From positions 1 through 28,554 of the IMG/VR virus record IMGVR_UViG_3300023184_000414: 28,554 bases of DNA, one strand, 5' to 3'. Of the stretch, positions 4,884 through 15,171 are shown piece by piece. The notes below the pieces were generated by a model. It was not told the DNA's origin. It worked only from the letters and a program-made list of their open reading frames with translations, and ran no database searches. The translations under genes and the position numbers were made by a program. Source of the stretch: a virus. Position 1 is the first letter of the stretch, and every line of letters begins with the position of its first letter.

Positions 4884-5193
4884 CCTCTAATTGCATCATA
4901 TATTCTTTGTAAATTTCTTGTCTTACATTATGGCAAACGTGTACATTCTTAGCAAAATTAACTAGAACGTCTTGTCTTTGATATCCTTCAGAGATTGTTC
5001 TACGTCTCTTTTGAGATTTATCATATTCATAAATAAAGAAATGCATAGAATCTTTTTGTCCAGAAAAACTATACTCTATGAGATAAGTGCCATCTGTATG
5101 TAGATATGCATCGATACCAGAAATAATATCAGAACCAAGCATTTCATACCCAGTTCCAGTTTTTGAAAAGTAAATCCAAACTTTTGATTCCAT
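4858..5193 (-). CDS. Hypothetical protein
   Basis: 111 residues (MESKVWIYFSKTGTGYEM) with beta-strands in the first half (TYLIEYSFSG, MHFFIYEY) and a helical tail ending in acidic residues. Not recognised. Starts three bases after the upstream stop and overlaps the TPR-like gene by 26 bases. Confidence 0.7.
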   Translation of the reverse strand: MESKVWIYFSKTGTGYEMLGSDIISGIDAYLHTDGTYLIEYSFSGQKDSMHFFIYEYDKSQKRRRTISEGYQRQDVLVNFAKNVHVCHNVRQEIYKEYMMQLEDEEIQNAN

Positions 5194-5196
5194 AGT

Positions 5197-5628
5197 TTAT
5201 TCTACCATGCCCCTGTTATATTTCTTTTCAAGTGTTTCAATAAATCGTGCATCAAAGTTAAGTGATTGAAACTGGATTTGGTCTTTTGGTGTTTCATAAT
5301 AACCAGTAAAATAAAAGTAATCCCTGTCAATATGTAACTTGACTGTCTTGAATTCTTTTAAACTTGTGTGGTCAAAATCAATCTTTAATTTATCAGTAAA
5401 TTTATAAGTTTCAACATCAGTAATTGTAATCATCCTTCTCATATAATGATAAGTACTATAAAGCAATTTGACTTCTTTAGAATCAAGAGTAAATGATAAT
5501 GGTTCTGGTTTAGAAATTTCTGTAATGTTTTCTTTTATATCAGAGAAGAGTTCTGGGTCATACTTCATAGAAAAATAACCAAAATAATCCGAGTCGATGT
5601 TTGCAGATGCTTCAAAAGAAATTATCAT
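5197..5628 (-). CDS. Hypothetical protein, leaderless candidate
   Basis: 143 residues (MIISFEASANIDSDYFG), rich in beta-prone and aromatic residues, with no known motif. The ATG is eight bases from the -10 box, so the mRNA is predicted to start within two bases of the ATG and no Shine-Dalgarno exists. First gene of the unit 5628-4094. Confidence 0.75.
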   Translation of the reverse strand: MIISFEASANIDSDYFGYFSMKYDPELFSDIKENITEISKPEPLSFTLDSKEVKLLYSTYHYMRRMITITDVETYKFTDKLKIDFDHTSLKEFKTVKLHIDRDYFYFTGYYETPKDQIQFQSLNFDARFIETLEKKYNRGMVE

Positions 5629-8592: not shown

Positions 8593-8677
8593 AGGAGAGA
8601 ACAGGATTCGAACCTGCGAACGCTTTCACGTTAACTGTTTTCAAGACAGTCGCTATCGACCACTCAGCCACCTCTCC
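8593..8677 (-). tRNA. tRNA-Ser(UGA)
   Basis: Cloverleaf on the minus strand: acceptor GGAGAGG, anticodon stem ACTGT / ACAGT with loop CTTGAAA (anticodon TGA), a long class II variable arm and TTCGAAT T-loop. No CCA is encoded; a T-run follows. It lies between two protein genes in the unit started by the promoter at 8909-8937. Confidence 0.93.
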
Positions 8678-9016: not shown

Positions 9017-9089
9017 TGGGCAGTACAGGACTTGAACCTGTAACCAACAAATTATGAGTTTGCTGCTCTAACCATTGAGCTAACTGCCC
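9017..9089 (-). tRNA. tRNA-Met(CAU), or Ile2 after modification
   Basis: Canonical cloverleaf: acceptor GGGCAGT / ACTGCCC, D-arm TAGCTCAATGGTTAGAGC, anticodon loop CTCATAA (CAT), T-loop TTCAAGT, discriminator A. Elongator methionine versus lysidine-modified isoleucine cannot be decided by eye. No CCA encoded. Confidence 0.92.
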
Positions 9090-10407: not shown

Positions 10408-11037
10408 CTAATCATCAAAAAATTGTTTTATTTGTTGATTAGCGATAGTCCAAAAATTTTTGTTTTGATGGATAATTTCTGACAATTGCTTTCTTCCTAA
10501 GAACACCAGTTTATCTTTAAAATTCACATCAATAATGAATGAATACGTGCTTGCTGTAGTAAATAGAAATACAGTGTGTGGTTTGTCCAAATCACAAGCA
10601 TGATTTTCTCTACCATCAAAATATGTTTTGGTCAAATCCTCATATTTTATTTGGTCATCACCAGTAGGATTTGGATTTGCTCTATATTTACATTGAACAG
10701 CAGACTTGTGACCATTGACATTAATACCTGTTGCATCTACACCATAGTCTGATGCACAATCTGCAATAGTATATTGATGTAGTCCAAACCTGTCATCAAA
10801 AACAGAATTAGTGAAGAATATTTCTGCTAAGATTTCAAGCATATCTCCTCGGAAATCATTCATGGTTTTTTCTTTATCAATCTGAGAAGATTTTTTGCTA
10901 CCAAGTTGATTTGCGTGATTTTCTACTAAAGATATCCAGATATCCAATGTTTTCATGGATTGTTCTGCTGTATCTAAAGTTTCGTATATGTCTTTAACTT
11001 GTTTGTGATAGACAGAAATACTACTATGTTCAAGCAT
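10408..11037 (-). CDS. Mrr-like PD-(D/E)XK nuclease
   Basis: 209 residues from the ATG at 11037, which has GGAG seven bases upstream and overlaps the helicase stop by eight bases (ATGCTTGA); an earlier in-frame start at 11085 would be deeper in the helicase gene. The nuclease core shows an early acidic helix (GDMLEILAE, Glu68/Glu72), GVDATG (Asp101) and AVQCKYR (Gln115, Lys117), the E...D...QxK pattern of Mrr-type restriction endonucleases. The N-terminal 60 residues are helical. Tight coupling to a DEAH helicase implies a joint complex that moves on and cuts DNA; target and trigger are unknown. Confidence 0.8.
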   Translation of the reverse strand: MLEHSSISVYHKQVKDIYETLDTAEQSMKTLDIWISLVENHANQLGSKKSSQIDKEKTMNDFRGDMLEILAEIFFTNSVFDDRFGLHQYTIADCASDYGVDATGINVNGHKSAVQCKYRANPNPTGDDQIKYEDLTKTYFDGRENHACDLDKPHTVFLFTTASTYSFIIDVNFKDKLVFLGRKQLSEIIHQNKNFWTIANQQIKQFFDD

Positions 11038-12775
11038 CGTATGTCTCCAAAATACTAATCGCCAGTTTCTCTTGTTCCTCTTCACTCATATCTGATGTTT
11101 TGAGATTAATCATTTCAGAGAATGAGAAGATGTGAGCCAATTGACCTTCTTTGAATTTTGCTTCGATTTCATCATCGGTATTAATGGATGGCATAACATA
11201 TTCTGGGTTTGCCATGAACTGTTCTTTTTCAGTAAATCTTTCTGCTCTGACACCATAGTTATCATAAACTTCGTCAATCAAAGTTTGTATTCTGTTAGCA
11301 TCATCCAAAAGATAGTTAGGTATCAAGACCCAAGCCCAAGGTTTTACGAATTTCTTGTATTCAGTTGGATATATTTTATCTTTATGTCCATCAGGTAAAT
11401 ACAATCTTCTTCGGTCTTCTGCAAGTAATCTAGTAGCTCGACCCAAGGTTTGTGTTAACTTCGATTTTGTCATGTCTCTGATAGGCATGACACCAGTAAT
11501 TGCAGGTAAGTCTATACCTTCCGCTAAGATATCAACATGAAGGAATATTGCATCATCACTATCACTTAACTCATTCATTTTGTCAATGATAGTATTTCTG
11601 CTATTTATTCTTTCAAAATTACAAAAGTCTCCATATTCAGAATTGACACTGAACATATGAACATTATTTTGTTCACACCATGTCCTAAATGCAATGTCAT
11701 TTACTACATCGTTTAATTGAACACTACCATCGCAAGTTACTAGTAATTTTGCACCTAGTGATTTTGGTTTACTTGAATGTTCCTTCACCTTAACTCTGTG
11801 ATTAATAAATCCCTCAGTTATGGCTCTAACAGTCATAAGGGGATTGTCATAACTATATCCCTCATCGTTTTGCACTTGGATGACATGATAGTTATTTGGT
11901 CTTACAATCTCTCCTTTTTCAACCATTTCTCTAGGAGATTTTTCAAAGAGCAATTCACCATAAAAATCAACTCTATTCATCCCACGTTTGCAATCACTCT
12001 CTTTACGTGTTGCAGTGAAGAAAAACTGTTTTTGAATTCTAGGTTTTACTTTGTCTACATTTGACCAGTAGTCATCTCTTGTTATAGTGTGTGCTTCATC
12101 GTAGGTACATACATCAATAACTGGTATCTTATTCAATCTGTCAAATGAATCATAAGTAGCAATGATTACACAATGCTTTTTATTTGATTTAGATTCATTT
12201 ACGAAATTTACTATCTCATCTGAATTGGTAGTATTCTTAACTTCAATATCATCAATAGATAATCTATCTGATACATCGTTTTGCTTCAGATGTTTGTTTC
12301 GTTTCTTGATTGATTTGTGTATCTTTTTCATGCTGTAGTTATCAGAACTAACAGAAAGAAAATCACATTCAATATTGTTCTCAAAACGTGCCATGTAGAC
12401 AAAATCATTGAATAACTGATTACACAATGCTAGTCTATGTGCAGTAATGACATATACACCACTTTGATTATTTTTGTTTTTTTCCACCATGTCTTGAAGA
12501 TGGATATGCAACTGGATTAAAGTTTTACCAGTACCAGTGGGAATTGAAACCTGACCTATAGATTCGTTTTTTATTCTTGATAATGCATCAATTTGATGAG
12601 GACGTAGATTCTTTCCATCATTGTCCAAGAATTCAATACTCTCGGTAATTTTTGGTTCGAATTTTTCTGTGGTAATCTGTATAGGTTGCTCTATCTTAAT
12701 TGTCTCTTTATTGTTAGGCAACATCTTACGCAAAGCACTTGCTATTTCTTTTCGGATTTCATCAATTGACTTCAT
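11030..12775 (-). CDS. Superfamily 2 DEAH helicase/translocase, restriction type
   Basis: 581 residues. A Q-like LRPHQ (57-61), Walker A IPTGTGKT (78-85), DEAH (226-229), a TAT motif (FFTATR), and a RecA2 domain ending in QTLGRATRLL (442-451) define an SF2 translocase of the type III restriction / UvrB-like group. EGIDLPAITG precedes motif VI. The start at 12775 (MKSIDEIRKEI) is five bases from the -10 box, so the mRNA is probably leaderless; earlier starts fall inside the promoter. It forms an operon with the nuclease and lies behind a separate unit with the two methyltransferase-like genes. Confidence 0.88.
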   Translation of the reverse strand: MKSIDEIRKEIASALRKMLPNNKETIKIEQPIQITTEKFEPKITESIEFLDNDGKNLRPHQIDALSRIKNESIGQVSIPTGTGKTLIQLHIHLQDMVEKNKNNQSGVYVITAHRLALCNQLFNDFVYMARFENNIECDFLSVSSDNYSMKKIHKSIKKRNKHLKQNDVSDRLSIDDIEVKNTTNSDEIVNFVNESKSNKKHCVIIATYDSFDRLNKIPVIDVCTYDEAHTITRDDYWSNVDKVKPRIQKQFFFTATRKESDCKRGMNRVDFYGELLFEKSPREMVEKGEIVRPNNYHVIQVQNDEGYSYDNPLMTVRAITEGFINHRVKVKEHSSKPKSLGAKLLVTCDGSVQLNDVVNDIAFRTWCEQNNVHMFSVNSEYGDFCNFERINSRNTIIDKMNELSDSDDAIFLHVDILAEGIDLPAITGVMPIRDMTKSKLTQTLGRATRLLAEDRRRLYLPDGHKDKIYPTEYKKFVKPWAWVLIPNYLLDDANRIQTLIDEVYDNYGVRAERFTEKEQFMANPEYVMPSINTDDEIEAKFKEGQLAHIFSFSEMINLKTSDMSEEEQEKLAISILETYDA

Positions 12776-12780
12776 ACCGT

Positions 12781-12857
12781 ATTTTATCATAATTTGTATA
12801 TACTGCAACAAATAAAAATTTGAATAAATTTTTTAGGGATGGTATCTACCATCCCTA
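12781..12857 (-). promoter_or_regulatory. Palindrome-promoter cassette 11
   Basis: Palindrome 12834-12857 (loop ATCT), -35 TTGCAG at 12803-12808, -10 TAAAAT at 12781-12786, 16-base spacer. Separates helicase-nuclease from the methyltransferase pair. Confidence 0.8.
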
Positions 12858-12887
12858 AAACAAATCCCCCATAAAATTATGGGGGAT
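12858..12887 (-). terminator. Hairpin terminator
   Basis: ATCCCCCATAA / TTATGGGGGAT with a 2-base loop, followed by TTTGTTTTA on the minus strand. Confidence 0.75.
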
Positions 12888-12891
12888 AAGC

Positions 12892-14133
12892 TCACTTTCT
12901 AATTCCATAATAATCAGGAAGAAATTCTCTGATGTAATCTTGGAGTTCTTGAGATACGTCAAATTTCTCAAATAACTTTTCATCATCCCATTCTTCTTTA
13001 AAATCAAGCCAAGGTATAAGACCAAGTTCACCGCCGACTAAACTTACACCATTTTTATAGATTGAAAGACAAAATCTTGCAAAATCTGTTTTGAGATATT
13101 CTATAAAGTTATATTGTTCTTGTTCACTATCAAAAGCGAATGTTGGAGGATTTTGATTTGTTTTTCTTATACCTTTATTATCATTAGAAGATTTCATAAC
13201 CATTGTGTAAAAATCATCTTGTGCGATTTTTGAAGAATCTGATTTTGCAGACAAATTGACATGACCACGAATCCTTGCCATTTGTACAAAAAATTTATCT
13301 GCTGGTGGATTCTCAGCATCAATCTTAACATCATTAATACTTTGATATGTCTTGATAGATTCAAAAAATGGTTTCACTAAAGTTATCCATTTCTCACCAT
13401 ATTTACTGATATCAAAAATATCACTTAAATTATAATTTTCATTAAAAAATGAAATATCAATGTTGCCACTATGTTTGGAATTTATGTGCGTAATCACTGT
13501 AGGAACATATAAACCAATATTGAATACAGGATTACCATTAAACATTTCTACTGATTTCAAAGAATCTTTAATTTGATTTCTGAAGTCTACAGTGAACTTT
13601 GTTCCATACTTGCAGTCAATTAACCAAGTAGAAGGGTGTATTGCAATTATTTCTTCTGAAATACCAACAAGTTCACTTAATATTTTTATGTCTACATTGT
13701 TAGTGTATGGTGGATTACTAAAAACCAAATCAAATTTCATATCAATGCCTGTTATCATTTTCTTCAATGCTGGAACAGAAAACTCATCTAAATTATATGA
13801 TTGTACTTTGAAAATCTTAACAGCACAAAGTTGTTCAATTTTGTTGTCTGAAATAAAAACAACATCTGACGAATTAACTTTTTGTTCATCTACTAAAATA
13901 TGAAGAAATTCTATATTAAATAAAACTAATATTTTCTTATTTTGTAAAGATGTTTTACTGACCATCTTACGAATAAGTGAATAAGGTGTTGGATTCTCCT
14001 GCCAATGATTTCCTAGTTTCGATACCCAATTGAAAAATGAAGCACGTTCATCAGAATCATTTAACTTATAACTCATTTGCTTTAAAAAGTTATCATCAGC
14101 AAGGGTTTTGTTTTTTAATTCATAGAGATTCAT
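12892..14133 (-). CDS. Adenine-N6 methyltransferase-like protein B (keeps NPPY)
   Basis: 413 residues from the ATG at 14133; GGAAGAG lies upstream and the start overlaps the stop of protein A by 14 bases. It has NPTPYSLIRKMV (47-58, motif X-like), a degenerate motif I (KKILVLFNIEF, 66-76, lacking the GxG loop), an acidic motif II region (SDN, 95-97) and a clear catalytic NPPY at 140-143. The C-terminus (YLKTDFARFCLS, IPWLDF, DEKLFEKF) resembles the target-recognition and tail region of type II/IIG adenine methyltransferases. It probably needs protein A, or an unusual AdoMet site, for activity; this is inference. Confidence 0.8.
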   Translation of the reverse strand: MNLYELKNKTLADDNFLKQMSYKLNDSDERASFFNWVSKLGNHWQENPTPYSLIRKMVSKTSLQNKKILVLFNIEFLHILVDEQKVNSSDVVFISDNKIEQLCAVKIFKVQSYNLDEFSVPALKKMITGIDMKFDLVFSNPPYTNNVDIKILSELVGISEEIIAIHPSTWLIDCKYGTKFTVDFRNQIKDSLKSVEMFNGNPVFNIGLYVPTVITHINSKHSGNIDISFFNENYNLSDIFDISKYGEKWITLVKPFFESIKTYQSINDVKIDAENPPADKFFVQMARIRGHVNLSAKSDSSKIAQDDFYTMVMKSSNDNKGIRKTNQNPPTFAFDSEQEQYNFIEYLKTDFARFCLSIYKNGVSLVGGELGLIPWLDFKEEWDDEKLFEKFDVSQELQDYIREFLPDYYGIRK

Positions 14134-14725
14134 TGATAAACTCTTCCATGTCTGAAACAAACTGCATTTCCGCTTTTTGGGAATATTTCTCTAGTGTATC
14201 ACCAAATATCTCAATTACTCTGTCTGTGCAATTAATCCAACCATTTTTGTAAATGTAAATGCCAGAACAATTATCAGGTAAAGATTTCAAATGTTTACTA
14301 TCACCAATAAACAAATTGATATACTGTGAATAAATGTGCATCAACTTATAGCATGATGATAATTGTAGTTCAGAAAAATAATGTGTTTCATAGAGAAACT
14401 TTTTGTATTGGAAATCATTGCCAAGTAATGAGATTTTTTTACGAAGCATTCTGATAGTAAATTGACCATAACCAGCACAAAGGTCTAATGTGATTTTGTT
14501 CTGGTTTTTCCAATCATAATCACTTACTCTTTGTAACATCTCATCTACTAACCAAATCGGAGTAAAAACCTCACCAAACGTATCAGATTTTTCCTTGTTG
14601 GTTGCTACTTGTAAATGGTATTCTTTTGGCATAGGCATGATAGAAAAATCACCTTTTAATTTGGCTACATTTTTGAATCTTCTTTCAATACACTTAACTA
14701 TATGTGTTGAATCATAAACTATCAT
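14120..14725 (-). CDS. Methyltransferase-like protein A (keeps AdoMet loop, lacks NPPY)
   Basis: 201 residues from the ATG at 14725, with AGGA six bases upstream; an upstream start at 14764 lies in the promoter. GEVFTP (51-56, motif X as in N6-adenine methyltransferases of the type I/Eco57I group) is followed by LDLCAGYGQFT (80-90), an intact motif I, and a GDS (141-143) fitting motif III. Where NPPY is expected (about 155-165) the sequence is GIYIYKNGWIN. So it can plausibly bind AdoMet but lacks the usual catalytic tetrad. It is translationally coupled to protein B. Confidence 0.8.
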   Translation of the reverse strand: MIVYDSTHIVKCIERRFKNVAKLKGDFSIMPMPKEYHLQVATNKEKSDTFGEVFTPIWLVDEMLQRVSDYDWKNQNKITLDLCAGYGQFTIRMLRKKISLLGNDFQYKKFLYETHYFSELQLSSCYKLMHIYSQYINLFIGDSKHLKSLPDNCSGIYIYKNGWINCTDRVIEIFGDTLEKYSQKAEMQFVSDMEEFINESL

Positions 14726-14819: not shown

Positions 14820-14852
14820 AATCCCCCACACGACCTGTAAATGTGGGGGATT
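14820..14852. terminator. Hairpin after the tRNA-Lys unit
   Basis: AATCCCCCACA / TGTGGGGGATT, 11 bp; the tail on the minus strand is only moderately U-rich. Confidence 0.6.
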
Positions 14853-14854
14853 AT

Positions 14855-14888
14855 TTTCACTTGGAGAAAAGAAAAAATCCAAGTGAAA
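14855..14888 (-). other. Hairpin immediately 3' of tRNA-Lys
   Basis: TTTCACTTGGA / TCCAAGTGAAA, 11-bp stem with a T-rich loop, starting one base after the tRNA; probably a 3' processing or stability element. Confidence 0.6.
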
Positions 14889-14960
14889 TGGGTTGAGTGG
14901 GATTTGAACCCACGACCAATGCCTTAAAAGGGCACTGCTCTTCCACTGAGCTACCAACCC
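14889..14960 (-). tRNA. tRNA-Lys(UUU)
   Basis: Canonical cloverleaf: acceptor GGGTTGG / TCAACCC, D-arm TAGCTCAGTGGAAGAGC, anticodon stem GTGCC / GGCAT with loop CTTTTAA, T-loop TTCAAAT, discriminator A. AAA/AAG codons are heavily used in this genome, so it would aid translation. No CCA encoded. Confidence 0.93.
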
Positions 14961-15049
14961 AAACTAAAGGAAGAGGTTATGTTCTGCCCGTCTTCGTGAC
15001 TAGTTAACGAGTGTCGATTTGAACAAAACTTACAATGATATGGCTTCAT
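14951..15049 (-). CDS. Possible 32-residue zinc-finger-like microprotein
   Basis: A frame between tRNA-Leu and tRNA-Lys reads MKPYHCKFCSNRHSLTSHEDG..., with CxxC and two following His (a C2H2-like pattern); its TAG stop lies inside the tRNA-Lys gene. There is no good ribosome site, so it may be chance. The region also has AGAGGTTA / TAACCTCT at its ends, which could pair to loop out the spacer. Confidence 0.3.
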   Translation of the reverse strand: MKPYHCKFCSNRHSLTSHEDGQNITSSFSLGW

Positions 15050-15090: not shown

Positions 15091-15171
15091 TCCCCCAGAC
15101 GAGACTCGAACTCGTACTCTTTGCAGAAAAGGATTTTAAGTCCTTCGTGTCTACCATTCCACCACCGGGGG
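15091..15171 (-). tRNA. tRNA-Leu(UAA)
   Basis: Class II cloverleaf: acceptor CCCCCGG / CTGGGGG, D-arm with GGTAGACA, anticodon stem AAGGA / TCCTT with loop CTTAAAA (TAA), a long variable arm, T-loop TTCGAGT, discriminator A. It reads the AT-rich UUA codon. No CCA encoded. First RNA of the unit started at 15182-15209. Confidence 0.93.

Follow-up and report, generated by a model that had tools for sequence, protein, structure and literature searches.

A conserved phage gene pair that probably divides one amino-type DNA methyltransferase between two proteins

The IMG/VR virus record IMGVR_UViG_3300023184_000414 (28,554 nt, analysed over its whole length and called the window here) contains on its minus strand two overlapping genes, A and B, that each hold one part of the motif set of a DNA methyltransferase. 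A has motif X and the glycine-containing motif I of an S-adenosylmethionine (AdoMet) site; B has the catalytic motif IV, NPPY, and a region resembling a target-recognition domain. Probably the two proteins together make up one amino-type DNA methyltransferase, to which A would contribute the AdoMet half and B the half for catalysis and recognition. The NPPY motif suggests that the methylated base would be N6-adenine. The assignment of one activity to two subunits is drawn from conserved complementary losses, natural B-A fusions, B proteins that start at motif IV, and the swapping of B beside a constant A. An earlier note, made from the letters of the window alone, had described two methyltransferase-like genes with complementary losses; this observation is right, and it is more general than its reader could know. 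The features of the pair are:

14120-14725, minus strand: gene A, candidate donor (AdoMet) half of a split amino-methyltransferase, 201 residues from ATG (open reading frame (ORF), open to 14764)
12892-14133, minus strand: gene B, candidate catalytic and target-recognition half, 413 residues from ATG (ORF, open to 14160 from TTG)
14558-14575, minus strand: motif X-like GEVFTP in A (sequence)
14459-14488, minus strand: motif I LDLCAGYGQF in A (sequence)
13741-14001, minus strand: N-terminal part of B, a degenerate donor half or pseudo-half (model alignment to M.TaqI and CamA; an ORF of its own in the related contig L108)
13705-13716, minus strand: motif IV NPPY in B (sequence; invariant in B alignments)
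12895-13473, minus strand: target-recognition-like region of B, bounds approximate (model alignment to M.TaqI and CamA)
14120-14133: overlap of the end of A and the start of B, 14 nt (sequence; the ATG of B lies inside the end of A)

Both ORFs were found in the span 12892-14725 given by the earlier note, with the start of B corrected to 14133. In A, GEVFTP occupies residues 51-56 and LDLCAGYGQF residues 80-89. Among ten aligned A proteins E52, F54, T55 and P56 of motif X and both glycines of motif I are invariant. The protein ends before motif IV and has no motif of the NPPY type. In B, the NPPY (residues 149-152 of the 422-residue reading) stands in the context FDLVFSNPPY. At the expected place of motif I there is KILVLFNIEFLHILV, which has no GxG, and it is preceded by a motif X-like NPTPYSLIRKMV. 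The two proteins divide the motif set after the motif I-III region and before motif IV. A reading in which window A had lost the acidic residue of motif II was withdrawn, as the alignment proved ambiguous once L108 was compared.

Single-protein scans of viral_contigs gave no relatives of window A or B; alignment-based searches did find relatives. With window A, tblastn against phages gave no match at 1e-5 and weak matches only at expect values (E) up to 1; together with another search these pointed to cyanophage A genes. The 80 viral loci used here come from a search of viral_contigs with an A alignment and are the best 80 of at least 527 relatives; the sample leans towards A proteins like that of cyanophage S-CAM7. 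A profile of these 80 viral A proteins matched window A (30.4 bits, E 1.7e-11 for one target), and the N-terminal region of CamA (residues 22-140) was also matched by the A profile. Window A further matches the PHROG families phrog_21201 (E 5e-7) and phrog_4376 (E 7e-7).

Motif IV is absent from all 80 related viral A proteins. Eleven loci with less than 1500 nt upstream were excluded from the count of B, three of which nevertheless show it; in the other 69 a B lies beside A without exception. One pattern found B in 64 of these and missed it in five, which show it all the same; a second finder missed only L028. Of the 69 B proteins that the first pattern found, none has motif I or a GxG plus N, T, Q, A or S within the 110 residues before motif IV, and eight begin at most seven residues from motif IV and so lack a donor half altogether. 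Among 250 other ORFs of at least 150 residues in the same loci, a single one contains the motif IV pattern. Chance is excluded across the 80 loci, because A never has motif IV, B is present wherever the locus leaves room for it, and matches to the motif IV pattern are rare elsewhere. For A the median ratio of nonsynonymous to synonymous substitution rates (dN/dS) over 851 pairs is 0.20; the region before motif IV gives 0.24 (76 pairs) and the B core 0.17 (56 pairs). These pairs are drawn from related loci and are not independent. The low values indicate that the region before motif IV is maintained.

The arrangement also appears in named phages. With window B, tblastn found 34 phage records. 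An A-like gene lies beside the B-like gene or within a few genes of it in the cyanophages S-CAM7, ACG-2014f, S-SKS1, P-SSM2 and Bellamy, in Aeromonas phage Ah1, in Vibrio phage phi-ST2 and in Lak phages. Searched with the A alignment, all 16 named phage records examined gave a match to A; four have no match except within a frame of 385-451 residues, the size of the fusion described below.

A and B differ in how far they have diverged. All 3160 pairs of A proteins are detectably similar (median identity 68.3%). Of the 2628 pairs of B cores, no more than 644 are so at 70% coverage (median 39.3%). In 34 of the 174 locus pairs whose A proteins are at least 80% identical, the B cores give no BLAST hit. 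Two A-B gene pairs were compared among three isolates of S-CAM7. At pair 1 the A proteins are 93.2-95.5% identical, whereas B gives no hit or a match of 20-79 residues only. From the start codon of A onwards the DNA is again 97.7-98.5% identical; the exchange thus took in B and its upstream partners and left A in place. At pair 2 there is no difference between two of the isolates, while the third has a divergent A (69.6%) and a B that gives no hit. Four loci (L040, L093, L126, L130) have two B beside one A.

Other arrangements of B were seen as well. Three B cores stand in tandem at L127:3764-5840, in a 30,219-base record in which no A was detected. A spare recognition-domain piece adjoins a B-A pair at L107:1799-2122, and Lak phages hold extra B-like pieces (L005:5005-5424, L009:4921-5442, L009:5842-6702); these pieces suggest shuffling. 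One Lak phage protein of 1439 residues (L009:605-4924) combines an N-terminus that looks GIY-YIG-like by eye with a ResIII helicase and a B-type methyltransferase whose motif I is degenerate.

In some phages the two halves are naturally joined. The Aeromonas phages Aeh1, phiAS5, ZPAH1 and 65.2 encode a single protein that starts with NPPY, continues with the recognition region and has motifs X and I at its end. Such B-A fusions were found in seven Aeromonas-phage records of viral_contigs. The family phrog_11371 has the same layout: window B matches its positions 2-261 (E 3.7e-48, residues 141-413 of the 422-residue reading) and window A, weakly, its positions 282-352. A model of the fusion (L020) reached a mean predicted local distance difference test score (pLDDT) of 76.2 and a predicted template modelling score (pTM) of 0.70. 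Its best structural match is M.MboIIA (Z 10.5, root mean square deviation (rmsd) 3.1, 148 residues, model residues 1-371), which aligns across both halves; M.BceJIV, TTHA0409, M1.HpyAVI, CcrM and EcoP15I Mod follow. We take these best matches to be beta-class methyltransferases. M.TaqI fits with an rmsd of 2.0, but only over the first ~113 residues. The model thus supports, moderately, a single predicted fold in which the A half completes the B half. A permuted B-A fusion of 448 residues also occurs at L134:2755-4101, in a contig titled as a Paludibacteraceae metagenome-assembled genome.

For B of the window, structure prediction, which the earlier note had proposed as a check, gave an AlphaFold2 model with a mean pLDDT of 74.8 and a pTM of 0.75. 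It fits M.TaqI (1aqj_B; Z 17.3, rmsd 4.6, 279 residues, B 56-389), a comparison that concerns the fold of B alone. CamA (Z 15.8, 296 residues, aligned up to B residue 402), LlaGI (Z 14.4) and LlaBIII (Z 14.2) were matched as well. An M.TaqI-like fold with a recognition domain is thus predicted for B by itself, as a fold only, and the alignment agrees with the recognition-like C-terminus proposed from the sequence. The further proposal that A and B are paralogues finds support only in the predicted fold of the N-terminal part of B, whereas the sequence signal between them is negligible (A profile against B, 2.1 bits).

The A alignment was also used to search bacterial and archaeal contigs. It gave 163 places, 80 of which were kept. 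By pattern these comprise 74 halves, three full enzymes, two that run off the contig end and one that was not found. An adjoining ORF with motif IV is present in 57 of 72 cellular half-A loci. In the 220 residues that precede motif IV these B neighbours never show GxG; in many of them motif I is a KSG variant, e.g. LDPCCKSGV. Several cellular halves adjoin a protein that combines a T5orf172/MUG113 (GIY-YIG-like) domain with a helicase domain, and PADLOC assigned one such cellular B core and the protein paired with it to its generic models for Type II methyltransferases and Type IIG. The halves in cellular genomes show that the split is wider than phages. No family above cut-off was found for window A or B in Pfam or NCBIfam; PADLOC gave one weak match for window A and none for window B, and none of the three has a family name for the split. 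The literature search, whose scope did not include most subscription papers and REBASE, found no methyltransferase divided so that motifs I and IV fall on separate parts.

The window contains the lysis-inhibition genes rIIA and rIIB and is therefore T4-like in gene content. A and B open a run of four genes on the minus strand, the other two being:

11030-12811, minus strand: superfamily 2 (SF2) helicase (ResIII) downstream of B (Pfam ResIII, E 1.7e-12)
10408-11085, minus strand: nuclease-like gene, PD-(D/E)XK/Mrr-like by eye (DYGVD...VQCKYR; cyanophage homologue profile)

Both genes also belong to the group in S-CAM7 and ACG-2014f, and the helicase has the same gene neighbours in L108 and S-CAM7. 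The window nuclease-like protein matched a profile of six cyanophage homologues from the same neighbourhood (38.0 bits, E 1.4e-13 for two targets); it had no match in Pfam and none by tblastn in phages at E up to 0.01. The link of an SF2 helicase to a nuclease, a feature of Type ISP enzymes, may exist here as well, the helicase being recognized by its ResIII match and the nuclease only by the homologue profile and by eye. The closest relative among the best 80 of at least 527, L108, carries the whole set, with identities to the window of 54.8% for A, 42.6% for the degenerate half, 34.6% for the B core, 39.8% for the helicase and 39.7% for the nuclease. In L108 the degenerate donor half is a separate ORF (4965-5327) with a TAATG overlap to a B core starting MKFDLVITNPPY, which is where other B cores start; the separate ORF may stem from a one-base assembly error at that exact point.

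Some further elements surround these genes. A palindrome, ATGGTA-N(1-2)-TACCAT, occurs in nine copies in the window (at 304, 1882, 3297, 9745, 10387, 12839, 14789, 17520 and 21339), against 0.07 expected in shuffles; several copies are intergenic, as if they were gene-border marks. A second hairpin, ATCCCCCA...TGGGGGAT, is present in two copies only (12864-12887 and 14821-14851), which flank the A-B pair on both sides; it might serve to terminate transcription or to delimit a cassette. Four transfer RNA genes (Ser, Met, Lys, Leu) lie at 8593-8677, 9017-9089, 14888-14961 and 15091-15171, two of them just upstream of the A-B unit.

The reading of A and B as subunits of one enzyme has to be weighed against others. 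B could be complete as a pseudo-methyltransferase fold by relying on the degenerate half it already has, and A could bind AdoMet as a regulator, perhaps of the helicase-nuclease, outside the active site of B. In favour of this, the match of the isolated window B model to M.TaqI extends over the donor-half region, with B's own degenerate half in the donor slot, and this half is under purifying selection in relatives (the median dN/dS of 0.24 above) and so is not simply vestigial. Yet the eight B proteins that start at motif IV have no half of their own and keep A alongside, B and A are naturally fused, and some pairs, e.g. S-CAM7 pair 2, have no annotated helicase or nuclease gene adjoining. 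We consider a separate regulator rather unlikely. If A and B do form one enzyme, A must in the window phage displace the half that fills the donor slot in the model, or dock elsewhere.

Somewhat less credit is due to the idea that B is active by itself, with a motif I of a variant class, and that A is an accessory raising its activity or stability. The LDPxxKSGV of many cellular B proteins beside a half-A might still bind AdoMet, and the pair-1 B of S-CAM7 isolate 0809CC03 (L231:4174-5235) keeps a near-complete GGG motif I, FYDPAMGGGQYL, beside its A. However, window B has neither GxG nor KSG, the counted viral B proteins have no GxG, and some B have no donor half of any kind. Besides these features of the B model, its selection and the variant motifs, a few more points weigh against two subunits of one enzyme. 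Six short records (4-30 kb) have B genes in which no A accompanies them, and 15 of the 72 cellular half-A loci have no B by the pattern used. Motif II of window A is placed inconsistently by alignment programs, with FSEL at a similar spacing by eye, and the fusion model is moderate in its Z of 10.5 and pTM of 0.70 and comes without an error estimate between the halves. Finally, the pair could be what is left, in decay, of a single ordinary methyltransferase gene that a mutation or a sequencing error has interrupted: A comes before B, as in an X-I-IV chain with a break in it, and stops just before motif IV. This is very improbable, as B holds its own degenerate X-I region so that A and B overlap in content, the arrangement is found in all 69 loci with room and in complete isolate genomes, and conservation together with dN/dS well below 1 in relatives speaks against a pseudogene.

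The complementary losses, their conservation, the fusions and the cassette exchange beside a constant A are evident at the level of sequence. A physical A-B complex, AdoMet binding, methylation, cleavage and a role of the degenerate half of B are inferred. In the split enzyme, A would bind AdoMet with motifs X and I, B would supply the catalytic NPPY loop and the target-recognition domain, and the half-sheet of A would complete that of B, as is predicted for the one-chain Aeromonas phage fusions. With A constant and B exchangeable, the target sequence could be changed by replacing B. The window unit with its helicase and nuclease-like genes would most likely be a phage-borne restriction-modification system, Type ISP-like but cut into separate genes, and pairs without such genes would act as solitary methyltransferases. 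We lean slightly towards a widespread modular methylation system of phages and bacteria in which a constant AdoMet-half subunit serves several exchangeable catalytic-recognition subunits, sometimes two per locus, and specificity is changed by swapping half an active site and not a recognition subunit. If so, an active site would be built from a constant donor half and exchangeable target halves, and nature would thereby supply a basis for split DNA methylation that can be re-targeted. T4-like phages could alter their methylation pattern by a cassette swap next to a constant gene, and many phage and bacterial genes listed as hypothetical or as truncated-looking methyltransferases would be accounted for.

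Several known systems resemble the pair in part. In the gamma-type N6-adenine methyltransferases M.TaqI and CamA, a single complete chain has the order X-I-IV-recognition domain. Window B shares their predicted fold and motif IV, but GxG is found only in A and NPPY only in B. Beta-class enzymes have the order IV-recognition domain-X-I in one chain. The Aeromonas B-A fusions show this order and align in both halves with M.MboIIA, CcrM and EcoP15I Mod, whereas in the window the halves are separate genes, first A (X, I) and then B (IV). Type ISP enzymes such as LlaGI and LlaBIII hold nuclease, helicase, methyltransferase and recognition parts in one polypeptide; the parts of the window unit would correspond to these, and the B model aligns to both enzymes, but here they are four separate genes (10408-14725). 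Type I systems also have constant and exchangeable subunits. There HsdM keeps the AdoMet and catalytic motifs together and recognition alone is separate (HsdS), whereas the window split separates the AdoMet motifs from the catalytic motif. In METTL3-METTL14 and ciliate MTA1c, two whole MT-A70 domains pair with unequal roles. The earlier note's comparison with METTL3-METTL14 fits loosely in that two methyltransferase-related proteins would have unequal roles, but here the cut runs through one domain, B has NPPY and not DPPW, and a pair of whole domains was rejected because A is too short. The C5-cytosine methyltransferases M.AquI and M.EcoHK31I are each naturally encoded by two genes and made of two polypeptides; M.AquI is cut inside its variable region and the small subunit of M.EcoHK31I supplies only motif IX (PMC3404938). 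The window likewise has two genes, overlapping and with complementary motifs, that would act jointly. They differ in that they encode an amino-methyltransferase, in that the cut is not in the variable region, and in that the AdoMet motifs and the catalytic motif IV are on different chains. As known split enzymes such as M.AquI are cut elsewhere (PMC3404938), the A/B split is a widespread, apparently unnamed variant of the split DNA methyltransferases and not a new category.
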